The notes beneath the pieces were generated by a model. The model worked only from the letters and a program-made list of their open reading frames with translations. It made no database searches and was not told where the DNA came from. The translations under genes and the position numbers were made by a program. Positions 5,891-16,974 of a DNA stretch of 36,643 bases are shown in pieces; position 1 is the first letter of the stretch, and the number at the start of each line of letters is the position of its first letter. Source of the stretch: Sorangiineae bacterium NIC37A_2 (GTDB lineage: Bacteria > Myxococcota_A > Polyangia > Polyangiales > Polyangiaceae); NCBI GenBank assembly GCA_002085155.1, contig NASX01000007.1, positions 95,925-132,567 of the forward strand. Reading direction: 5' to 3'.

Positions 5891-5919
5891 CGAGGGGAGG
5901 GCCCTTGGCCGTCCCCTCG
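5891..5919 (-). terminator. Hairpin downstream of the mini-protein gene
   Basis: Arms CGAGGGGA (5891-5898) and TCCCCTCG (5912-5919) pair perfectly, and inner GGCC/GGCC arms (5900-5903, 5907-5910) extend the stem across one G-G mismatch, leaving a 3-nt loop. It starts about 20 bp after the mini-protein stop. There is no U-tract on either side, so it may be an RNA-stabilising or factor-assisted terminator rather than an intrinsic one. Confidence 0.5.
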
Positions 5920-6281: not shown

Positions 6282-7472
6282 TCAGAAGCTGCTGAAAAAT
6301 GACCAAATATTGCCGGCGACTTCGTCAGGAATGTAGTGGTCGTAATTGCCAGTGCACCAGGCGACGGGCTTCTCCTCGGCGCAGCCGTCATAGAACGAGC
6401 AGTTGTTCAGCGACTTCGTCGAGCTGGAACTGCAACCGTTCTTGCCAACCCAGAAGTCGCGGCTGCTCTCGCCGCTTGAGATCGCGACGATATTATCCTG
6501 CGTGCCGTGCTGGAGCATGATCGCGCTCTTGACGGAGTTGTTCGCGCAGCCATTCGGACCGCCACCGGCGACCGGAGCAAAGGCCCGGAACCAGTCACTT
6601 CGGTCGCAGGCGATCTGGTTTGTGAAGAAGCCGCCCATACTGAAGCCGGCGATGAAGATGCGCGTACGGTCGATGCAGTACTTGTCGCCAAGTTCGTTGA
6701 TGATGGTCTCGAGGAACTCGTAGTTCTTCGCGTTCGCCGACCAAGTCGACAACAGCACGTTGTCGCCCCAATGGGAGGTGTTGCCCGGATGGGGCCCTTC
6801 GCCCTGGGGCCAGACAGTGATGGCCTTGCCGCCCGAGCGCTGCGTGAAGTTGAAGCGATCGACGACGGCGATGTTGTTCATGTCGTAGCCGTGCAGACCA
6901 AAAATCAGCATGAGGGGCGTCTTGTTGTCCGCTCCCTGGGGCACGTCGAGGAGGTAGTAACGAGTGTCCCCTTGGATCTGGAGCTCTTGCTGTTGGTTCT
7001 TCGGGGGAGGCGTCGGGAAGGCCTTGCCACAGCCAGGGGTCGTGGGCTCCTGGGTCTGACCGCCCGAACCATCCACGCCGCCACTGCCGTCCGCTCCGCC
7101 GGACGCTGTTCCACCATCGCCGACGCTTCCTCCGGCAGCGTCGGCGCCACCGCTCGAGGCTCCCGCGCTCGCCCCTCCTGAACTCTCACTTCCTCCCGCG
7201 GCTCCGGATGTTCCACCGGTGAGAGCGCCGCCGGCTGCGGGCGACCCACCCACGTCACTTTGGCCGCCGCTGGGCGCGCCCCCGGCACCCGGGTTCGCCG
7301 CGCCCCCAGCGCTCGGATTGGCTTCTCCTCCTGTTCCGCCAGGCAAAGACCCACCGTCACTTGAACAGGCGGCAACAAGTCCAAGCGCAACACAGAGCGA
7401 AGCCGGCGTGACCCTGCGGACGGCGGGCCGGAACAGATCGCGATGTGTGACAGGTAAGCTTGCGGCCGACAT
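6282..7472 (-). CDS. Secreted lipoprotein esterase, CE1 / PHB-depolymerase-like (esterase 1)
   Basis: A 396-residue alpha/beta hydrolase, probably cleaving ester side groups of polysaccharides (acetyl or feruloyl) or short polyesters outside the cell. The start at 7472 gives a signal peptide (RR at 19-20, hydrophobic core) ending in a lipobox-like VAAC with the acylated Cys at 36; the ORF extends 20 codons further upstream but that part is not signal-like. A Gly/Ala/Ser-rich stalk of about 90 residues follows, then the catalytic domain with nucleophile motif GFSMGG, probable Asp in HGTQD and probable His in NYDHY. Many Cys in the domain suggest disulfides. It is homologous to esterase 2 (11650-12861). 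The leader holds a GGGGA-N8-TCCCC palindrome and a second hairpin directly before the ATG. Exact substrate is unknown. Confidence 0.85.
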   Translation of the reverse strand: MSAASLPVTHRDLFRPAVRRVTPASLCVALGLVAACSSDGGSLPGGTGGEANPSAGGAANPGAGGAPSGGQSDVGGSPAAGGALTGGTSGAAGGSESSGGASAGASSGGADAAGGSVGDGGTASGGADGSGGVDGSGGQTQEPTTPGCGKAFPTPPPKNQQQELQIQGDTRYYLLDVPQGADNKTPLMLIFGLHGYDMNNIAVVDRFNFTQRSGGKAITVWPQGEGPHPGNTSHWGDNVLLSTWSANAKNYEFLETIINELGDKYCIDRTRIFIAGFSMGGFFTNQIACDRSDWFRAFAPVAGGGPNGCANNSVKSAIMLQHGTQDNIVAISSGESSRDFWVGKNGCSSSSTKSLNNCSFYDGCAEEKPVAWCTGNYDHYIPDEVAGNIWSFFSSF

Positions 7473-7506: not shown

Positions 7507-7530
7507 GCAGGGGAACTTTTTCTCCCCTGC
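7507..7530 (-). promoter_or_regulatory. GGGGA-N8-TCCCC palindrome upstream of esterase 1
   Basis: The 8-bp arms GCAGGGGA and TCCCCTGC are perfect inverted copies, separated by an 8-nt A/T-rich core. It lies 34 nt upstream of the start codon. The same inner arms with the same spacer occur before esterase 2 and the GH10 xylanase, which suggests a shared operator or RNA element. Confidence 0.6.
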
Positions 7531-7707
7531 AACTGGGAACCGGTGCCATGGCTTCAGGGGAGCCGGGGGGCGAAGGCTGTGTGAGCGCTATGGAAGCGGT
7601 ACCCATCAATCGCTCACTGCCCGAGCGAACGATGTGATCGGTTCTGCGCGAGGGACTGGACGAATGGCCGGTCCACCCACGCGCAATGTTTACACCGAAG
7701 GTCCGTT

Positions 7708-9420
7708 TCAGCGGGCGCTCGTGAAGAGGGGGCTCTGAATCAGTTCGAGGGTGAGCTCTTTGAGGGAGGCACTGTCCTCGTGGCTGGTGGCGATTGTGCC
7801 GTCGAGCCCCGAGCGATCGGCGCTGTCCAGATCACGAGCGAGTACGAACTCGGCGAGGTGCGCGCTGAAACAAGCGTGAGCTCGCTGATCCTCTGCGAGC
7901 AAGGTGGCGAGCTCGGCGGCTCCTGAGAATGTCTTCTCTTCTCCCGAGAAGCGATAACTTCCGCTCGTATCGACAGGAGAGCCGTTGTCTGTCGTGCGCA
8001 GGCGGCCGAGCGCGTCGTAATTCTCAAATGCGAAGCCGAGGGGATGGATGTGTTCGGCGTGGCATTCGGCGCAGGGCGCATCCGCCGTGGCCTCTGTCAG
8101 CCAATCGCGCATCGTCTGCCCGGGCATTCGCATCTCGGGGATCGTCGGAATCCCACTGGCTGGCACTTCGAGCACGCGGCACAAGAGTGAGCCCACGATG
8201 AAGCTGCCTCGATGGACGGGGCTGGGCTCGGTCGGTAGGGAGCGGGCGGTCAAAAATCCGAGGCGCGTCAGGATGCCGGGGCGTTCGGGGAGCTCGACCG
8301 GAACGAAGCCCTGACTCGGGGGATCGACGCCGTAAAGGGGCGCCGTGATGGGGTCGACGATCGCGAGGGGCGTCGTCAGGAGGTCACGAAGTCCGCCCTG
8401 CTGCTCGACCAGGTGAGCGAACAAGAGCTCGTCAGCAGTGAGGAGGCTTTGTTTGAATTCCTCTGCGGAGCCGGGGAAAAGAGGACTCTCGAGGTTCGGA
8501 TAACGGCGGAGCTCAAAGAGCTCGGAGTAAAAGCGCGCGAGCGTCTCGCTCGCTCTCGACTGTTCGAGGAGCTCCGCGGCGGCCTCGAGCAGACCCTCGT
8601 TCGTGTCGAGCCCCCCGCTCGCAGCTTTCTCAAGCAAGGCATCACTCGGTGTTGTGTCGATGAGAAGAAGGGAGAGCCGTGTGGCGAGCTCGAGTCCGCT
8701 GAGCCGTTCGCCCTCGGGGGTCAGCTCGATGCGATAGAGGAAGTGGGGCGAAGTGAGCAGGGCTTCGATGAAAATGCGGGCACCATCCGCGGCGTCGCTT
8801 CCGAGACTTGTCTGGTCAGCGATCTCGATTCCTTCCGCCCAGAGGGCCGAGAAACGCGCGACCTCTGGTTCGGTCAGCTCCCGGCGGAAGGCGCGCTTGC
8901 CGACTTTGCGGATGAACTGTACCGGATCTTCCACACCTCCGAGTCGTTCGAGCGCTAATGCGTCCATGGCGACCCGCTCTGCGATCACGGAGGCGGCGGC
9001 GAGGTGCTCCGTCCAAGCTCGCTCGTCCACCAGAAGAGACTTCTCGTTGTTCGTGAATGTGCTGACGGGGACGTCGTAGGAGAAGGGAGGTAAATCAGAG
9101 GGAAGTGAGGGCAGCTCGAAGATGGCCTGGATGCTGTTTTGCCATTGCAGATGCGTGAGTCGGACGAACCCGGTGAAGAGGGGCGTTCCGGTGATTTGGA
9201 TGTCTTCGGGATCAATAGTCCCCGCACCGCCCGAGCCCGATGTCTCTCCACCCTTGCCGCCGGAGCCTTTCGACTCGTCCGTGTCACCGGAGTCGCCCGC
9301 GGATCCGCCAACACCACTGTCCTCTCTATCACGATCGGTGAGGCCGCAGCCGAGGCCGAAGAGCGAGAGACCCAGACAGAGTAGGCATTGAATACACTTG
9401 GTGCCGGTTATCGCGCGCAT
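7708..9420 (-). CDS. DUF1592-family lipoprotein with one c-type haem motif
   Basis: A 570-residue exported protein. The start at 9420 follows an AGGAGG about 12 nt upstream and gives a hydrophobic signal ending GLGC, an atypical lipobox with Cys 25; a Gly/Ser/Asp-rich stalk follows. The rest matches the modular DUF1587-DUF1595-DUF1592-DUF1588-DUF1585 architecture known from Planctomycetes, Verrucomicrobia and myxobacteria: a KRAFRREL segment (DUF1595-like), TSPHFLYRIEL (DUF1592), then CAECH (coded at 8059-8073) followed by PLGFAFENYDALGR (DUF1588) and a C-terminal DUF1585. CAECH is a CxxCH haem c site, so an extracytoplasmic redox role is likely; the reaction is unknown. It is transcribed divergently from the DUF1552 gene, its usual partner, across a 391-bp region. 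Confidence 0.88.
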   Translation of the reverse strand: MRAITGTKCIQCLLCLGLSLFGLGCGLTDRDREDSGVGGSAGDSGDTDESKGSGGKGGETSGSGGAGTIDPEDIQITGTPLFTGFVRLTHLQWQNSIQAIFELPSLPSDLPPFSYDVPVSTFTNNEKSLLVDERAWTEHLAAASVIAERVAMDALALERLGGVEDPVQFIRKVGKRAFRRELTEPEVARFSALWAEGIEIADQTSLGSDAADGARIFIEALLTSPHFLYRIELTPEGERLSGLELATRLSLLLIDTTPSDALLEKAASGGLDTNEGLLEAAAELLEQSRASETLARFYSELFELRRYPNLESPLFPGSAEEFKQSLLTADELLFAHLVEQQGGLRDLLTTPLAIVDPITAPLYGVDPPSQGFVPVELPERPGILTRLGFLTARSLPTEPSPVHRGSFIVGSLLCRVLEVPASGIPTIPEMRMPGQTMRDWLTEATADAPCAECHAEHIHPLGFAFENYDALGRLRTTDNGSPVDTSGSYRFSGEEKTFSGAAELATLLAEDQRAHACFSAHLAEFVLARDLDSADRSGLDGTIATSHEDSASLKELTLELIQSPLFTSAR

Positions 9421-9811
9421 GCTCTTGTCTGCCTCCTGCTTCAGCCCCCTCGAGACCCGAACAAAGCCGAGCATAGCTATTTCTTTTCGAGAAAGCTCCT
9501 TCGGGGGAAAGGAAAAATGCGACACGCTCCGTGTCGCGTCAGGCTAAGTGTCGCCCTTTCGCGGGGCAGCCTCCGCCTCGCTGGGATGCAAGAATCGTGT
9601 GGTAAAGGAAATTTGTTGTGAGCCCTTCATGGGGAGCGCGTCCGAGCGGCGGAACCCCATCCAGATCATACAGATAGGACGTTGGGCCCATGAGCTCCCT
9701 CGCAAAGACCTCATTGGCGCCAAGGGGCGCTCGTGATACCCCTAGGCTAGGTCCGTCGGGACAGGCGCCCGTCTCGAGCGCATGTATTGTCCGGGAGGGA
9801 GCGGTGGTCTC
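9421..9811. other. Shared divergent control region of the DUF1592/DUF1552 pair
   Basis: No gene is supported here. The region must hold both promoters. It contains a GCGACAC/GTGTCGC inverted repeat with a third GTGTCGC copy (9519-9554), ATGGGG...CCCCAT arms 20 bp apart (9629-9660), and AAGGGG/CCCCT arms near 9722-9743 with 11 bp between G4 and C4, a near miss to the GGGGA-N8-TCCCC motif of the neighbouring enzymes. Confidence 0.5.
9519..9554. promoter_or_regulatory. GCGACAC/GTGTCGC repeat cluster
   Basis: GCGACAC (9519-9525) and GTGTCGC (9531-9537) form a perfect 7-bp inverted repeat with a 5-bp spacer. A third copy, GTGTCGC, lies at 9548-9554, 17 bp on. Three related heptamers between two divergent genes suggest a transcription-factor site; the protein is not known. 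Confidence 0.45.
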
Positions 9812-11188
9812 ATGAAAACAGTGCCCAAGAAGAAGGTATCTCGACGCGCTCTCCTGCGTGGGGCCGGAACGACAGGCCTCCTCTTGCCATTCTTGGAGAG
9901 TGTCCCTGAGCGCTCCGCGTTTGCTCAGAACGAGGATCCTCGCTTTGCGTTTTTTATCTGTGGGGCGAACGGTGTCGTTCAGAAGTACGGAGACGAGCCC
10001 GAGCGGTTCTGGCCCACGGAGCCGGGGCCGCTGACGAAAGAGAAGATGCTCGCGGACAGTGCTGAGCGCTGCACGGGGCTGCTCGCTGACTATGCTGATC
10101 AACTCCTCATTGTTAGTGGCATGAGGTACCCCGACGCTGCGAGAGGAGATACGCACGCTGAAGGGCACACGATGTGCCTAACAGGCCTCCCTTGTGAGGG
10201 AACTTCGATCAAAGCTACGAGCAAGGGACCATCCGTCGACTGGGTCATCGCTGAGCACGCGGGCGGAGTTCCGTTGAACACGTACGCAGGCATGAAGAGT
10301 GGCTACGTCGATGACAAGCTCTCCTTCCGCAGCGCCGGAGAGCTCGTCATAGCCGAGCCCGATCCGAAGAAAGTCTACCTCGAGCTGGCGGGGCTCTTAG
10401 ACGGCACTGGAGCGGAGAGCGCCATGGCCCTTGAGCTTGCGCGCCGAAGGAAGAGCGTCAACGATCTCGTGAGGGAAGACCTACAGGGCCTACTCAGCGA
10501 TCCGCGGCTGAGCTCTGCGGACCGACAGCGCCTCGAGCTCCACTTGAGCGTCATTCGGGACATCGAAGTCTCGACGGAGCGGATGGGCTGTAGTGAAAAG
10601 AATCTCTCGCTGGATGAGATCCTCACCATTGGGCCGAAGGGGTACATCGAGGACGTGGTCCGCCTCCAGATGCAGCTCGTGGGGGTGGCTTTTTCCTGCA
10701 ACATGACGCGCGCCGCCACGCTGCAGTGGGGGGACGGGGGCGGCGACGGTACCTTCTACATTATCGATGGTGAGAAGCTGGAGCGGTTCCATTTCATCAG
10801 TCATCGGGTTCGCTCGGACGGCTTTAGCGGCGAGCCCATCGTGGGCGCCGCAGAGATGCACGCGAAGATCGATCGCGTCCGGATGGGGACGTTCAAGACT
10901 CTCTTGGATCACTGGCGGCTGCTCTCGACCCCCCAAGGGAATCTGCTGGACAGCGCCTTTGCGATGTGGACGACGGACGTGGCTGTGGGACCGACCGGCA
11001 GCTTCCAGAATCTCCCTGTCATCATCGCCGGTAGCGCTGGCGGGAGGCTCCGGCAGGGCGAGTATCTGAAGCTCCCAGCCTTCAACAACACTCGGCTCCT
11101 CAAGAGTTTCCTCGAGGTGTGCGGAGTGGACTCGAGCGGTTTTGCGGCTTCAGAGAACGTCGAGCCTTTGAGCGAAGTTCTCGCGTAG
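9812..11188 (+). CDS. DUF1552-family protein, Tat-exported
   Basis: A 458-residue exported protein. Start 9812 is chosen over the upstream in-frame ATG at 9782 because GGGAGGGAG lies about 10 nt before it and it places a twin-arginine signal at the N-terminus: KKKVSRRALLRGAG, a hydrophobic stretch and a probable cleavage after SAFA. Tat export implies folding, possibly with a cofactor, before secretion. The remainder matches DUF1552, with HAEGHTMCLTG near residue 120, and shows no recognised catalytic residues. DUF1552 genes commonly sit next to DUF1592 genes, as here in divergent orientation, so the two products probably act together outside the cytoplasmic membrane. Its place among hydrolase genes suggests polysaccharide or aromatic metabolism, which is inference only. 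Confidence 0.88.
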   Translation: MKTVPKKKVSRRALLRGAGTTGLLLPFLESVPERSAFAQNEDPRFAFFICGANGVVQKYGDEPERFWPTEPGPLTKEKMLADSAERCTGLLADYADQLLIVSGMRYPDAARGDTHAEGHTMCLTGLPCEGTSIKATSKGPSVDWVIAEHAGGVPLNTYAGMKSGYVDDKLSFRSAGELVIAEPDPKKVYLELAGLLDGTGAESAMALELARRRKSVNDLVREDLQGLLSDPRLSSADRQRLELHLSVIRDIEVSTERMGCSEKNLSLDEILTIGPKGYIEDVVRLQMQLVGVAFSCNMTRAATLQWGDGGGDGTFYIIDGEKLERFHFISHRVRSDGFSGEPIVGAAEMHAKIDRVRMGTFKTLLDHWRLLSTPQGNLLDSAFAMWTTDVAVGPTGSFQNLPVIIAGSAGGRLRQGEYLKLPAFNNTRLLKSFLEVCGVDSSGFAASENVEPLSEVLA

Positions 11189-11469
11189 AGAGCTCTCAGG
11201 GAGAAGCGACTCGGCTGCGTCGAGCCCGCCTGACTCGAGGAAACGAAACGAGTCGCCGGACGCGCGGTCATGCCGACGGGCGGCCTGTCGAACGCGGGGC
11301 CCTTGTCGAACGCCAGGGGGGCGTCGATCGGCGCGGGCCGGCCCGCGCGGAAGTTCGTAAGCGGCGCGCGGAAAATTGGTAAGGAGAGAGTGAACCTCCC
11401 CGCTCTGGAAAGTTCTATTCAAGGCAGCATTGGTAGCGCTGTCCGCGGCAGATTTTGAGAAGAAGTCTG

Positions 11470-11495
11470 AAGGGGGGACAAAAATGTCCCCCTTT
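11470..11495 (+). promoter_or_regulatory. GGGGA-N8-TCCCC palindrome upstream of esterase 2
   Basis: GGGGGA (11473-11478) and TCCCCC (11487-11492) flank an 8-nt core CAAAAATG; flanking A/T pairs lengthen the arms. It is about 157 nt upstream of the esterase 2 start. GGTTAC begins at 11511, exactly 19 nt after the TCCCC, as it does in the esterase 1 leader. Confidence 0.6.
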
Positions 11496-11508
11496 GTGAG
11501 CGCTTACA
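11495..11508 (+). promoter_or_regulatory. LacI-type operator-like palindrome
   Basis: TGTGAGC followed directly by GCTTACA is a 14-bp palindrome with one mismatch and a central CG, the form of LacI/GalR-family operators. The left ten bases TGTGAGCGCT also occur in the esterase 1 leader (7580-7589), where the right half is poor. Confidence 0.4.
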
Positions 11509-11550
11509 GGGGTTACCGGCTCGGTGCCGGGTCGCTCGAGCGTCTCCGCT

Positions 11551-11586
11551 TCCCGCCGAAGAAAACGCCGTTTTTCACCGGCGGGA
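11551..11586 (+). promoter_or_regulatory. Two-part hairpin in the esterase 2 leader
   Basis: Outer arms TCCCGCCG (11551-11558) and CGGCGGGA (11579-11586) enclose inner arms AAAACG (11562-11567) and CGTTTT (11569-11574). It lies 64 nt before the start codon. It could be a transcript-stabilising or attenuator structure; there is no U-tract directly after it. Confidence 0.4.
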
Positions 11587-11649
11587 GGGCTGGCTGTTCG
11601 GGGTCGATCGCGACGCGGGTCACGAACTTGTGAGGAAGGTGAAGAAGGA

Positions 11650-12861
11650 ATGGCGATGTTTCAGAGGGAAGCGAATAGTCTCCGCAGCTACCGCAATGCG
11701 GTGAAGATTCTCGTGGTCTTGGGTGCGCTCAGCGCGTGCAGCTCCGAGGGCGCTGATGGTCTCGGAGACGCGGGCACGGGCGGGACGTCCGATGGCGTCC
11801 CGACAGGCGGCGCGGTGGGCGCAGGAGGTCAGGCGGCGGGGGGCGCACCCGTCGGAGCCGGCGGAGCGCCCGTCGGAGCAGGGGGCGCTCCGGTCGGAGT
11901 GGGGGGCGCAGCCGCAGGTGGTGCGCTTTCCAGCGGCGGGGCTCTGGCCACCGGTGGATCGAGCTCCGGGGGAGCGGTCGGCGCCGGCGGAGGTGACCTT
12001 GGAGTCGGCGGAGGCGGCACGGGCGGTGATGAGGGAACGGGTGGCACTGGTACCGGCGGCGGCGGACCCGACGAAGCAAGGAGCGCGGGCTGCGGCAAGA
12101 TGCGTACCCTCATGAACGGTCGTCATAACATCATGAGCGGCGGGCAGAACCGCGAGTACATCCTGCGCGTTCCGGACAACTACGATAACAATAAGCCCTA
12201 TCGTCTCATCATGGCCTATCACTGGCGGGACGGGAACGCTACGCAGGTCGCAGAAGGAGGCAACGACGGTTCGACGGAAGACCCCTTCTACGGGCTCTGG
12301 GACCTTGCTCAGGGAAGTACGATCTTCGTCGCTCCAGAGGGTGTGGGCAACGGCTGGCCGAACCCCAATGGCCGCGACGTGCAGTTCACGGATGCGATGC
12401 TTGAGCTGTTCCAGAACGATCTCTGCATCGACACCAAACGCATCTTCGCGACCGGCTTCAGCTTCGGCGGAGGTATGTCCTTCGCGCTCGCTTGCGCACG
12501 CCCCGACGTTTTCCGGGGAGTGGCACTTTATGCGGGAGCGCAGCTCAGCGGGTGTGAAGGAGGGAACAAACCTGTTGCTTATTTCCATGCGCACGGCGTC
12601 CGAGACTCCGTCCTGCCCATCTCCTCGGGCCGTCAGCTCCGAGACAAGTTTGTCGGGCTGAATGGGTGCATGTCCCAGAATCCCCCGGAGCCCGCGCAGA
12701 ACAGCGGAACCCATATCTGTACGTCCTACCAAGGATGTAAAGAGGGGTACCCGGTCCGGTGGTGCGCACACGGTGGCGATCACAACCCGACTGAGAAGGA
12801 CAGCGGCCAGAGCAAGAGCTGGGTACCCGGAGAGGCCTGGCAGTTCATCTCGCAGTTCTGA
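11650..12861 (+). CDS. Secreted lipoprotein esterase, CE1 / feruloyl- or acetylxylan-esterase-like (esterase 2)
   Basis: A 403-residue paralogue of esterase 1. The start is 11650 or 11656; AAGAAGGA sits 5-7 nt before the second. The signal peptide ends LSAC (Cys about 30), so the product is a lipoprotein. A Gly/Ala-rich stalk of about 120 residues contains tandem GAGGAPV units (roughly 11841-11905), then the alpha/beta-hydrolase domain with nucleophile motif GFSFGG, probable Asp in HGVRD and probable His in GGDHN. This form resembles CE1 feruloyl/acetylxylan esterases, which remove ester decorations from xylan and so help the GH10 xylanase encoded nearby. Conserved Cys residues are shared with esterase 1. 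The preceding leader carries a palindrome shared with two other enzyme genes. A hairpin follows the stop codon closely. Confidence 0.85.
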   Translation: MAMFQREANSLRSYRNAVKILVVLGALSACSSEGADGLGDAGTGGTSDGVPTGGAVGAGGQAAGGAPVGAGGAPVGAGGAPVGVGGAAAGGALSSGGALATGGSSSGGAVGAGGGDLGVGGGGTGGDEGTGGTGTGGGGPDEARSAGCGKMRTLMNGRHNIMSGGQNREYILRVPDNYDNNKPYRLIMAYHWRDGNATQVAEGGNDGSTEDPFYGLWDLAQGSTIFVAPEGVGNGWPNPNGRDVQFTDAMLELFQNDLCIDTKRIFATGFSFGGGMSFALACARPDVFRGVALYAGAQLSGCEGGNKPVAYFHAHGVRDSVLPISSGRQLRDKFVGLNGCMSQNPPEPAQNSGTHICTSYQGCKEGYPVRWCAHGGDHNPTEKDSGQSKSWVPGEAWQFISQF

Positions 12862-12868
12862 GGAGAAC

Positions 12869-12897
12869 GCGCGGAGGATCCTACGGTCCTACCGCGC
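12869..12897 (+). terminator. Hairpin after esterase 2
   Basis: GCGCGG and CCGCGC form the outer stem and AGGA/TCCT the inner one, beginning 8 bp after the stop codon. No U-run follows, so intrinsic termination is uncertain. Confidence 0.45.
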
Positions 12898-12933
12898 AGA
12901 CTGTCACACACTGCGTCAGTTTTGTACGAAAGA

Positions 12934-12957
12934 GCGCGGCCCCATTCGGGGCCGCGC
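12934..12957. terminator. Strong GC hairpin between esterase 2 and sodC
   Basis: GCGCGGCCCC and GGGGCCGCGC are perfect 10-bp arms around the loop ATTC. It is 73 bp after esterase 2 and about 130 bp before the SOD start. GGCGTTTG follows on the plus strand, a weak U-tract. It most likely insulates the two genes. Confidence 0.55.
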
Positions 12958-13085
12958 GGCGTTTGTAGGCCTTCTCTCGCGCACGGAGCGAGTGGCTCGA
13001 TGGTTGCTTCTCTCGGTGCGTCGCACGGACAGGCTTGAGTTTGGCTCTCTCCGGCGGCGTTTCACTCATGGAGGGAACTATCAAA

Positions 13086-13712
13086 ATGACGACAGCACGT
13101 GCGAAATACCTGCCAGCGCTCGTTTGCGCTTTGTCCATCACGAGTCTGGCTTGTGAGAAGAACAAGCCTGAGCCCGTGGACGGTTCGGCCGTATCGGCGC
13201 CGGGAGCGGGCGACGGGGTTCGAGAAGGCGAACCTGACACAGACAAAGAGCGAGACGAAATCCGGAAGGCAGAGGTCGACATCGACGCCGCCAAGGGCAA
13301 AGAGATCGACGGAGAAGCGAAGCTCACCGCGACCGCCACTGGTGTTCGGATCGTGGTCGAGGTGGAAGACGCGCCCCCTGGATCGAAAGGGATTCACATC
13401 CACGAGAAAGGGGACTGCTCCGACATCGCTGGCAAGAGCATGGGCGACCATTTTGCGCCTGACGGGCACAACCACGCGCTGCCTGATCAGGGCCAGCGCC
13501 ACCTCGGAGATCTCGGTAACATCGAGGTAGGAGAAAACGGGAAAGGGCGCCTCGCTATTACAGTGGAAGGCGCGAATCTCAAGAAGGATGACCCGAAGTC
13601 CTTCCTTGGAAAAGCATTAGTGATACACGAGTCCACCGACAAAGGCTCAGCCGAGCAGCCGTCGGGCGATTCGGGGACGCCCATGGGCTGCGGGGTCGTC
13701 AAAGAGAGTTGA
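13086..13712 (+). CDS. sodC: Cu/Zn superoxide dismutase-like lipoprotein
   Basis: A 208-residue exported member of the Cu/Zn-SOD family, which converts superoxide to peroxide and oxygen outside the cytoplasm. Start 13086 has GGAGGG about 9 nt upstream. The signal ends SLAC, so a lipoprotein is expected. Metal-site motifs are present: HIHEKGDC (two Cu His and the disulfide Cys), GDHFAPDGHNH (bridging and Zn His), RHLGDLGN (Zn His and Asp), VIHE (fourth Cu His) and the second Cys in GCGVV. Where most family members have Arg three residues before that Cys (RxxC, the superoxide-guiding Arg), this protein has Pro (PMGC, coded CCC ATG GGC TGC). Metal binding looks intact but activity may be lowered or altered. 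A strong terminator follows. Confidence 0.88.
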   Translation: MTTARAKYLPALVCALSITSLACEKNKPEPVDGSAVSAPGAGDGVREGEPDTDKERDEIRKAEVDIDAAKGKEIDGEAKLTATATGVRIVVEVEDAPPGSKGIHIHEKGDCSDIAGKSMGDHFAPDGHNHALPDQGQRHLGDLGNIEVGENGKGRLAITVEGANLKKDDPKSFLGKALVIHESTDKGSAEQPSGDSGTPMGCGVVKES

Positions 13713-13742
13713 CCGAGCACAGGTGCGTGCTCCCATAAAAGC

Positions 13743-13782
13743 AAAGTCGCGCACCGGTGAGGTGCGCGACTTTCCGTTTTTT
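13743..13782 (+). terminator. Rho-independent terminator of sodC
   Basis: A perfect 13-bp stem (13743-13755 with 13761-13773) has a 5-nt loop and is followed by CCG and six T. It ends the sodC transcript; the AAA at the left base also makes it usable from the opposite strand. Confidence 0.9.
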
Positions 13783-13795
13783 CTCTCTGGTGAGC

Positions 13796-13820
13796 GCCGG
13801 CTCGCTCGACGCGAGCCGGC
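13796..13820 (-). terminator. Hairpin after the Cys-rich remnant
   Basis: GCCGGCTCGC and GCGAGCCGGC are perfect 10-bp arms with a TCGAC loop. It starts 10 bp after the TAG (13830-13832) that ends the remnant's C-terminal frame, which supports that frame as the original 3' end of a gene. Confidence 0.55.
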
Positions 13821-13829
13821 AGCTAGGGG

Positions 13830-14428
13830 CTACAGTTTCTCCACCTCCGTAGCCTTCACTTGGTAGACGTTCCCGGTCTCGGGCTCGGTGACCGGGCGCA
13901 CGAAGCCGAACACGTCTTGTGCCGATTCCGCGGTCATGGTCCAGCTGCCCGAGAGGTATTGGAGACGAAGGCGAAAGGATCGCGGTCTACGGAGCAAACT
14001 TCGCATTCGTTGCGCAGGTTTGCGGTTCCGTCGGGATAGCAGACGCCGTCGATGGCGCAGCCGTCACAAGTCAGCCCACATACGTCGGCGATCGGATCGC
14101 AAAGCTCGCCGCTGCCGCAGGTGGGGACTCCGGCGCCACAAGAATTGGCTTGTTCGTCGCAGGTCTCGGCGCCGGTACAGCTGACGCCGTCGTCGCAGGG
14201 ATCTTTGGCCCCTGCCTGGCACTTTCCTGCCTGGCAGGTATCGCCGCTCGTGCAGAACCTACCGTCCTCACAGCTCGCGCCGCTCGGACGATCCGTCCAC
14301 GCCTGGTCATCGAGGTTCGCCCGGCACACTTGGCAGGAGTTCTCTGGGTTCTCGCTGCCTTCAGGGAAACAGCGGGCGCCGATTTGGCACCCCTTACAGG
14401 TCCCCGAGGCGCTGCCTCCGGTAGAGAG
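13830..14428 (-). pseudogene. Decayed Cys-rich secreted protein (5' deleted, frameshifted)
   Basis: The minus strand codes for an obviously Cys-rich protein with no acceptable start: the frame begins right after an in-frame TAA (14429-14431). It has two related units, [17 protein letters not shown] and [17 protein letters not shown], each followed by a short (C)xVC-type segment, with CxxGxxC-like modules between them. Near 13960-13975 the Cys-rich frame runs out (stop 13934-13936), but another frame continues with protein-like sequence through SGSWTMTAESAQDVFGF and ends VKATEVEKL at TAG 13830, followed by a terminator-like hairpin. The simplest reading is a large secreted protein that lost its 5' end and took an indel. 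Alternatively, the last 35 codons start at ATG 13937, overlapping the stop as ATGA, and form a small gene. The function of the original protein is unknown. Confidence 0.65.
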
Positions 14429-15078
14429 TTAATGATATGTGAGAGAAGGTTGAAGAGATTTATTGCTGGGGAATCCAAGGGGAACGTCAGCCGTTTGGCG
14501 GCCGTTAGGTGCATACGTTATACGCATGTGAGCGACGGTCGCCGAATCCGGTCTCCAAGCGTGGGGTTAGGAGAGAAGCGGAGTCGGCCTCGAAAGTGCC
14601 GTCGACGGGACTCGGCCGCGCGCCAGCCAGCTCCCCCCTCATTCGCCTGGAAATGGCTGTGAGGGCATGCGCGAAGGGGAGACTTTGCCGAGGGGCGGGC
14701 AGAGTGGCCGTTTCGCCCGCTGGAGCGGGAGAGCGGGCCGCTCCGTCTCAGGGCGAGAATCGGGAGCTCGCCCGTGAGTCGTCGCCACGCCGCTCTGAGC
14801 CGAAGGAGAGCGCTCGGGGCGCCGTCGAGCGGAGTGCCTGCTGCTCGCCCCCATCGGTCATTACGGGAGCGCACGAAAATTGTCTTCCAGGTGAAGTTGT
14901 GCGCGCACGGCCTTCTTGGGGGACACTTGGTCGCCAAAGTCGGAACGCGGAAAAGGGGCGGATGTCATCGCGCCACCATGGGAGGGGAAGTTTTCCTCCC
15001 CTGGCGAAGCTGGTATACGCCCGGTCCACGATCCTCTCATTTTCGGTCGGCCTCGCCGGTCTCTTTCTGGAGCCAACA
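14429..15078. other. Region before the xylanase gene, no gene supported
   Basis: About 650 bp. The first 60 bp are distinctly A/T-richer than the surroundings and mark the broken 5' edge of the Cys-rich remnant, so they may be a deletion junction. The rest is GC-rich with frames open in several directions but no credible start, ribosome site or domain. The GGGGA-N8-TCCCC palindrome is near the right end, 76 nt before the xylanase ATG, followed by GGTATAC, a possible -10-like element. Confidence 0.5.
14983..15002 (+). promoter_or_regulatory. GGGGA-N8-TCCCC palindrome upstream of the GH10 xylanase
   Basis: AGGGGA (14983-14988) and TCCCCT (14997-15002) flank an 8-nt core AGTTTTCC. Arms and spacer match those in the two esterase leaders. 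GGTATAC follows 10 nt later. Confidence 0.6.
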
Positions 15079-16974
15079 ATGAACCCTCGTCTGCCCAAGT
15101 CGTTTCTTCCCTATGTCCTTCGTCTCTTACCTATCGCGGCGTGCACTGTGGCGACGCCCGCCTCCGCCCAGAACCTGATCTCGAACGGGACTTTCGAAGG
15201 AGAAGAGATTGGACCTTGGTGGGGACACGCGGATGAAGGAGCGGAGGCAGTGCAAACCCTCGAGGTCGTCGAGGGGCGTATGTGTTCAACGGTCGCTGAG
15301 GGCGAGGCAGGCACGGACCCCTGGCACGTGATCATCGGTTTGAGCGAGGTGCCCCTGGTCGCGAACCAACACTACAGGTTCAGCGTTTCGGCCTCCGCGA
15401 CGACGGCGCGCGAGATCCGCGTCAAGACGGGCCTCGGCGACGCTCCGTACACCGACTACATCCTTCAGCGGCTGAATGTCACGACAGAGCCCCAGACCTT
15501 TACGTTCACGTATCTGAACATTCGCGAGGACGCCGAGGCTCAGCTCCAGTTCCAGGTCGGCGGTCACGTCGGGCAGCTCTGTCTCGATGACATCGTGTTC
15601 GAGCCGGTCGATCCCCCGGAGGTCCCCGCTTACGTCACGCCTTCGATGACCGGTCATCCTCTCAAGGCCTACACGTCGGTCGTGAAGATGGGCACGGCGG
15701 TGGACACGCCGATCTTTCTGACGAACCCCCAGCACAACGCCATCGTCGCCGGCGAGTTCAGCATGATCACTCCCGCGAACTCGATGAAGATGGCCAACAT
15801 CCAGCCGGCGAAGGGTGTTTACGACTTCACCGACACGCAAGCGCTCAAGGCCTGGGCGGATGAGCACAACATCGAGTTCCACGGGCACCCGTTCATCTGG
15901 CACACCCAGGCCCCGAACTGGCTCGTCGACGACACGGAGCTCGACCGGGAGGCCATGCTCGAGATCATGTACGACCACATCGACAAGGTCTCGGCCGCTT
16001 TCCCGGGCCTCCCCTACTGGGACGTGGTGAACGAGGCGATCGATCAGGTGCCGAGTGACCCCGCTGATCCGAGCAGCCCGAAGGTCTGGGGCTACCGCCC
16101 GACGATCTGGCACGACCGCATCGGACCGGATTTCATCGACCTCGCCTTCCAGCGGGCCCGGATGGCCAATCCGACGTCGAAACTCCTCTACAACGACTAC
16201 AACATCGAGCAGAAGGGGAACGCCAAGGCGGACCGCGTCTACGAGCTCATCGCCGACATGAAGACCCGCGGCATCCCCGTCGACGCGGTCGGCTTCCAGA
16301 GCCATTACTACGTGACGGCGGAGGGAGGGACGAGCGGCGTCCCGAACATGCAGGCCATCAAGGACAACATGGCTCGCTACGCGGAGCTCGGCGTGGAAGT
16401 TCACATCACCGAGTGCGACTTCCGTATTGGCAAGCCTCTCGACGACGCCAAGGCGCAGATGCAGGCGAAGTTCTACGCGGAGCTGCTGCAGGTCTGCATC
16501 GACGCTCCGAACTGCTCACACTTCACCGTGTGGGGGCTCAGCGATCTCGATTCTTGGGTTCCGAGCACCTTCCCGGAGTACGACTTCGCGCACCTCTTCG
16601 ACTCCGAGCTGAAGCCGAAGTCTGCTTACCACGCTATGACGCAGGTCTTCTCCGCGTACCCCGCGGACAGTGGTCCTGTGGGCGGAACCGGTGGAGCGGA
16701 CGGAGCTGGAGCCGCGTCGGGCGCTGGGGGTGGTGACGTCGTCGGTGCAGGTGGTCTTGGCGCTGGCGCGGAGACCGGCGCCGGCGGTGGTGACGTTGGC
16801 GCAGGTGTTGGTGGCGCTGATGCGGGCGTGGGCGGTGGTGCTGCCCCGAGCGGCGGTGGCGGCGGTGGCGGCTGCAGCGTCGGTCCGAAGACCGGATTCC
16901 GCGCCGTGGGTCCCTTCGCGCTCGGCCTGGCCTTTGCGGGGTTGGTCTGGGCTCGTCGTCGCGCCCGGGCGTAA
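15079..16974 (+). CDS. Endo-beta-1,4-xylanase, GH10, with N-terminal CBM and MYXO-CTERM sorting signal
   Basis: A 631-residue secreted enzyme that cuts internal beta-1,4 bonds of xylan. Start 15079 has GGAG about 7 nt upstream and gives a signal peptide cleaved after ASA (about residue 29-30). Residues ~31-180 begin NLISNGTFEG and end LCLDDIVFE, typical of a CBM4/9-like carbohydrate-binding module. The GH10 barrel spans ~190-530, with acid/base Glu 319 in WDVVNEAI, nucleophile Glu 445 in VHITECD, and GHPFIWHTQAPNW and QSHYYV on the substrate face. A Gly-rich stalk (~540-595) leads to GCSVG, a hydrophobic helix and RRRARA: a MYXO-CTERM signal, processed by a myxosortase so that the enzyme is held at the cell surface. 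It converges with the pectate lyase gene. Confidence 0.95.
   Translation: MNPRLPKSFLPYVLRLLPIAACTVATPASAQNLISNGTFEGEEIGPWWGHADEGAEAVQTLEVVEGRMCSTVAEGEAGTDPWHVIIGLSEVPLVANQHYRFSVSASATTAREIRVKTGLGDAPYTDYILQRLNVTTEPQTFTFTYLNIREDAEAQLQFQVGGHVGQLCLDDIVFEPVDPPEVPAYVTPSMTGHPLKAYTSVVKMGTAVDTPIFLTNPQHNAIVAGEFSMITPANSMKMANIQPAKGVYDFTDTQALKAWADEHNIEFHGHPFIWHTQAPNWLVDDTELDREAMLEIMYDHIDKVSAAFPGLPYWDVVNEAIDQVPSDPADPSSPKVWGYRPTIWHDRIGPDFIDLAFQRARMANPTSKLLYNDYNIEQKGNAKADRVYELIADMKTRGIPVDAVGFQSHYYVTAEGGTSGVPNMQAIKDNMARYAELGVEVHITECDFRIGKPLDDAKAQMQAKFYAELLQVCIDAPNCSHFTVWGLSDLDSWVPSTFPEYDFAHLFDSELKPKSAYHAMTQVFSAYPADSGPVGGTGGADGAGAASGAGGGDVVGAGGLGAGAETGAGGGDVGAGVGGADAGVGGGAAPSGGGGGGGCSVGPKTGFRAVGPFALGLAFAGLVWARRRARA

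Follow-up and report, generated by a model that had tools for sequence, protein, structure and literature searches.

A recurrent palindrome upstream of xylan-degradation genes and a candidate winged-helix regulator in a Sorangiineae bacterium

A palindrome, GGGGA-N8-TCCCC with an A/T-rich middle, precedes, in nearly identical copies, two feruloyl esterase genes and a xylanase gene of the uncultured myxobacterium Sorangiineae bacterium NIC37A_2, and it recurs before xylan enzymes and before a putative regulator gene in related genomes. This recurrence indicates that a regulon is very probably switched through the palindrome. Its identification as the operator of a previously undescribed regulon for xylan and plant hemicellulose is well supported by the sequence comparisons described below. 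The palindrome is probably a DNA operator for xylan and ferulate degradation, most likely bound by a dimer of an uncharacterised protein designated clade X.

Palindromes in the window and in this genome

The window, which is the whole 36,643-nt stretch of DNA that was analysed, contained exactly three matches to GGGGA-N8-TCCCC, starting at 7510, 11474, and 14984. Copy 1 (GCAGGGGAACTTTTTCTCCCCTGC, 7507 to 7530, with the core palindrome GGGGAACTTTTTCTCCCC at 7510-7527) is located 37 nt upstream of the start codon of feruloyl esterase 1. Copy 2 (GGGGACAAAAATGTCCCC, 11474-11491) and copy 3 (GGGGAAGTTTTCCTCCCC, 14984-15001) are located 158 nt upstream of the start codon of feruloyl esterase 2 and 77 nt upstream of that of the GH10 xylanase, respectively. 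All three have an A/T tract at the centre (TTTTT, AAAAA, and TTTT). These positions agree with the sequence-only reading of this DNA, which had also reported no further copies in the window; the pattern scan likewise returned these three matches only. No GGGGA-Nx-TCCCC match was detected in the window at any other spacing from 0 to 12. Shuffled versions of the window contained 0.10 matches on average, and three matches were reached in 0 of 100 shuffles. When 2000 Markov shuffles were used, three matches to the N8 pattern were reached once without the A/T-core demand, and the A/T-core pattern gave a mean of 0.0005 with a maximum of 1. A sigma-70 promoter scan detected no promoter-like site close to the three palindromes.

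Other repeats were observed in the window. A GGGGA-N13-TCCCC sequence at 5894-5916 is a long, G+C-rich, intergenic inverted repeat, probably a terminator unrelated to the operator. The sequence TGTGAGCGCT was common to the surroundings of copies 1 and 2 (7580-7589 and 11495-11508), and near copy 2 it forms part of TGTGAGCGCTTACA, a longer near-palindrome similar to LacI-type operators. TGTGAGCGCTTACA was rejected as a LacI-like second motif near copies 1 and 2, as it was missing at copy 3.

The genes behind the palindromes encode exported enzymes. Esterase 1 (6282 to 7472, minus strand, start codon assigned to the ATG at 7472) is a feruloyl-esterase-type lipoprotein with a Gly/Ser-rich stalk, Pfam alpha/beta hydrolase matches, and similarity to PDB 8jh8 (E 1.1e-25). 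Esterase 2 (11650 to 12861, plus strand, ATG at 11650) is a feruloyl esterase lipoprotein with a Gly-rich stalk (8jh8 feruloyl esterase, E 1.1e-70). Both had previously been described simply as esterases, and their best PDB relative refines this description to feruloyl esterases. The third gene (15079 to 16974, plus strand, ATG at 15079) encodes a secreted GH10 endo-xylanase (PF00331, E 1.9e-89) with a CBM4_9 module (PF02018, E 1.7e-14) and a Gly-rich, MYXO-CTERM-like C-terminus, recognised from the translation.

A DUF1588/1592-type gene (7708-9420, minus strand) and a DUF1552 gene (9812-11188, plus strand) lie between the two esterases. Relatives of the former were observed near a clade-X regulator (L166) and behind the near-palindrome GGGGAAGATCTTCTCCTC in another genome (G001, L075); these DUF1588/1592 and DUF1552 genes may belong to the same biology as the palindrome. 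Between the SOD gene and the GH10 gene, a Cys-rich, repeat-like stretch at about 13840-14430 (minus strand) contains no evident intact gene and is apparently a gene remnant.

We scanned the whole genome (5.0 Mb, 150 contigs) for the palindrome. GGGGA-N8-TCCCC gave 12 matches, compared with 4 for a reversed control pattern. The nine matches outside the window were mostly within ORFs and had G+C-rich cores; one (L007) was clearly intergenic. When four A/T nucleotides were required in the middle (GGGGANNWWWWNNTCCCC), only the three window sites remained in the 5.0-Mb genome, so that the same palindrome precedes functionally related genes and is rare elsewhere. The sequence-only reading had named, as the observation that would count against it, matches being as common inside genes or before unrelated genes as base composition predicts; the confinement of the A/T-core palindrome to three promoters in this genome leaves that reading standing. 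An additional feruloyl esterase gene (L019; PDB 8jh8, E 5.6e-60) is preceded, at a distance of about 80 nt, by a one-mismatch site (GGGGGCAAAATTGTCCCC), and a weaker site (AGGGGCTCCAAACTTCCCCT) was located upstream of one of the three other GH10 genes (L073). The strict site was missing at three of the four GH10 genes of this genome.

Recurrence of the palindrome in related genomes

The strict A/T-core pattern was then used to scan 184 genomes of the order, in which most named relatives are metagenome assemblies. Fifteen sites were found, comprising the three in the window and 12 elsewhere. Four of these 12 sit in the promoters of xylan enzymes, namely a GH10 gene (G057), a GH43 gene (G010), a feruloyl-type esterase gene (G121), and a GH43-CBM6 gene (G127); most of the other eight fell within ORFs. 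Across the order, about 15-16 matches were obtained with the reversed control pattern. The palindrome was therefore not in excess by number, and only its placement argues for it. Seven of the 15 palindrome sites were placed in xylan-enzyme promoters compared with 0 of 15 reversed-control sites, using an enzyme panel that was partly drawn from palindrome matches, although Pfam had initially identified these enzymes without reference to the palindrome. In other genomes, too, genes of this type are thus preceded by the palindrome more often than by the control pattern, and extending the test to the order did not overturn the proposed regulon. Elsewhere in the phylum, the matches other than one in G397 fell within ORFs or next to genes that matched nothing in the xylan or regulator panel.

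The proposal of a regulon for surface-attached cell-wall degradation holds with respect to the operator and the regulon, but its scope is narrower, as the genes encode enzymes acting on xylan and ferulate (feruloyl esterases, GH10 and GH43 enzymes, and the GH30 enzyme beside the candidate regulator). Gly-rich stalks and MYXO-CTERM sequences are not the trait that unites it.

Sites of the same type were also found in regulator promoters. In both G147 and G152, AGGTGAGGAAATCCTCACCT precedes the regulator gene by slightly more than 100 nt. One G121 copy of the gene is preceded by AGGTGAGGATTCCCTCACCC and another by GGGGGAGGTCTGATTCCCCC, and AGGGGAAGTTATTCTCCCCT and GGGGCACTTTTTCTCCCC occur in the regulator promoters of G010 and G127, respectively. 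In NIC37A_2, the candidate regulator gene on contig C123 also has an upstream site, though a degenerate one (GAGGCAAAATTGCACCCC), and the promoter of a regulator paralogue on contig C109 contains GAGGACAAAATCGTCCTC with the same spacing. A trinucleotide outside the search pattern, TGC after TCMCC, was common to copy 1, G010, G147, and G152 (extended half-site TCMCCTGC). The pattern GGTGANNWWWWNNTCACC gave eight matches and no control matches in 18 genomes; two of the eight were regulator promoters, and most of the others were within ORFs.

Of the 15 clade-X promoters, 7 carried an N8-spaced site, as did 7 of the 47 promoters of paralogues, compared with about two at other spacings. General palindromes were not clearly enriched in the paralogue promoters (34 of 59 with 6-7 pairs, 26.7 expected from shuffles), and the N8 GGGGA-type class was the only one enriched. 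Outside the order, in the same phylum, G397 carries a strict site (GGGGGACGTTTTTGTCCCCT) about 90 nt directly upstream of a distant regulator homologue. No recognisable site was found in 8 of 15 clade-X promoters; a clear site is also missing from three of the four GH10 promoters here, which points either to incomplete membership of the regulon or to drift of the motif.

The candidate regulator and alternative explanations

Clade X is a protein of about 330 residues, and a GH30 glucuronoarabinoxylanase gene usually comes next after its gene. The palindrome separates a GH gene from a divergent clade-X gene in G010 (GH43) and G057 (GH10), and there the gene after clade X is related to a GH30 glucuronoarabinoxylanase (PDB 9ywn, E 4e-44). 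NIC37A_2 has one clade-X protein (C123:6740-7723), encoded on a different contig from the window palindromes and followed by a GH30-type gene, also a relative of 9ywn. The clade is monophyletic (support 100/100), and about 13 of the genomes in the order have it. A clade-X gene is present in each of the five genomes with xylan-promoter sites, including this one, and five genomes with sites in genes or elsewhere have no relative at E 1e-20. By our own count, this co-occurrence (5 of 5, compared with 13 of 184) has P of about 8e-7; restricted to GH10-bearing genomes (about 11 of 35 with clade X), P is about 0.006, weaker because both features track xylan degraders.

The clade-X protein had no match to a named regulator family above the Pfam cut-offs and no NCBIfam match; weak matches to Penicillinase_R and TrmB stayed under the Pfam cut-offs. 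Its structure model contains two winged-helix domains at mediocre confidence (pLDDT 72, pTM 0.48). When taken singly, the winged-helix domains could be superposed on MarR-type domains (Z about 10 and rmsd 2.6 over 66 residues for residues 157-222), a likeness of fold limited to these single domains; no MarR Pfam match was detected. The sole Foldseek match of the whole model to PDB under E 0.001 was AlkX/YcaQ, which superposed poorly and was not accepted as a homologue.

These observations make clade X a likely, if unproven, regulator of the palindrome. The palindrome would be an operator of 18-20 bp, and the winged-helix regulator would bind it as a dimer, controlling its own gene as well as those for xylan and ferulate enzymes. 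The half-site would be RGGKGA, which appears as GGGGA here and as GGTGA in some relatives, and the fixed 8-bp A/T-rich middle would set the spacing of the two DNA-reading heads. Autoregulation is suggested by the palindrome about 100 nt upstream of the clade-X gene in several relatives. As for the sign of control, we slightly favour a repressor relieved by a xylan-derived signal over an activator.

The palindromes could instead be genuine operators of a xylan regulon bound by another transcription factor, with clade X a mere neighbour, for example, a target beside GH30. The location of clade X outside the window, the degenerate site in its promoter in this genome, and the control of xylan genes elsewhere by ROK or LacI proteins are in line with such a factor. 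However, N8 sites also precede paralogues and the very distant G397 homologue, which are not known to adjoin xylan genes, and this fits autoregulation rather than a shared xylan target. We consider another factor unlikely.

Much less probable is an RNA hairpin on the transcripts (a 5'-UTR attenuator, a riboswitch, or an RNA-protein site), the alternative raised in the sequence-only reading. Perfect arms of 5-6 bp with an 8-nt loop would fold, and one copy lies 37 nt upstream of a start codon. However, the core is unpaired (the four inner positions pair in 4, 4, 1, and 2 of 8 sites), the A-tract is on either strand relative to the gene with no U-run after it, and sites occur in divergent intergenic regions up to about 240-300 nt upstream. 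No Rfam match was found in the window, and none of the three palindromes is at a site resembling an intrinsic terminator (G+C stem and T run). A chance or composition artefact of a G+C-rich genome, the least probable reading, agrees with the order-wide count being equal to that of the control pattern but conflicts with the controls for placement and spacing: it is contradicted by three A/T-core sites in 7.5 kb with none elsewhere in 5 Mb, by the positions before xylan enzymes, and by the spacing-specific enrichment in regulator promoters.

Relation to known systems and significance

The proposed clade-X regulon resembles the xylan regulons of Caldicellulosiruptor and Thermotoga, which are controlled by the LacI-family XynR and the ROK-family XylR, in that a pathway-specific regulator would act through one operator common to scattered xylanase, esterase, and xylan-oligosaccharide genes (PMC8579813, PMC3750489). 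It differs from them in that the clade-X candidate has no LacI or ROK match in Pfam and NCBIfam, the proposed operator reads GGGGA-N8-TCCCC around an A/T middle, and the targets recognised in the regions examined are exported enzymes and secreted lipoproteins.

MarR/BlaI-type winged-helix regulators typically have palindromic operators and regulate their own genes. Clade X is similar to these proteins in the single winged-helix domains of its model but has two of them in tandem, together with helical N- and C-terminal regions. The link between a dedicated regulator and glycan enzymes that are surface lipoproteins is also reminiscent of the polysaccharide utilisation loci of Bacteroidota. Unlike those loci, the regulated genes here are dispersed single genes, and neither a SusC/D pair nor a hybrid two-component system is among the annotated window genes.

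Typically, the gene after a regulator paralogue encodes a lipoprotein with the N-terminal part S(Q/E)(T/S)(N/H)xL...C...C.CG.C, and this two-gene unit recurs at L131, L132, L144, L145, L152, L154, L156, L245, L249, and L251. We tentatively raise the possibility that clade X belongs, as a single branch, to a large family of regulators with double winged helices that is undescribed and has expanded in Polyangiales (at least 12 at E < 1e-60 in one genome). Each member might typically have a partner gene for a Cys-rich S(Q/E)T(N/H)xL lipoprotein and use its own version of the RGGNGA-N8-TCNCCY operator. Together they might do in myxobacteria, in a glycan-specific way, what the regulators of polysaccharide utilisation loci do in Bacteroidota.

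Although myxobacteria rank among the major degraders in soil, we found no description of a myxobacterial xylan regulon or of xylan-enzyme control in the open-access literature. The putative operator, together with a candidate regulator family that has no Pfam or NCBIfam assignment, is testable by one binding assay. The two together would also be a handle for locating hemicellulose genes in uncultured genomes, and they hint at the way in which DNA is read by a large family of regulators that lack annotation.
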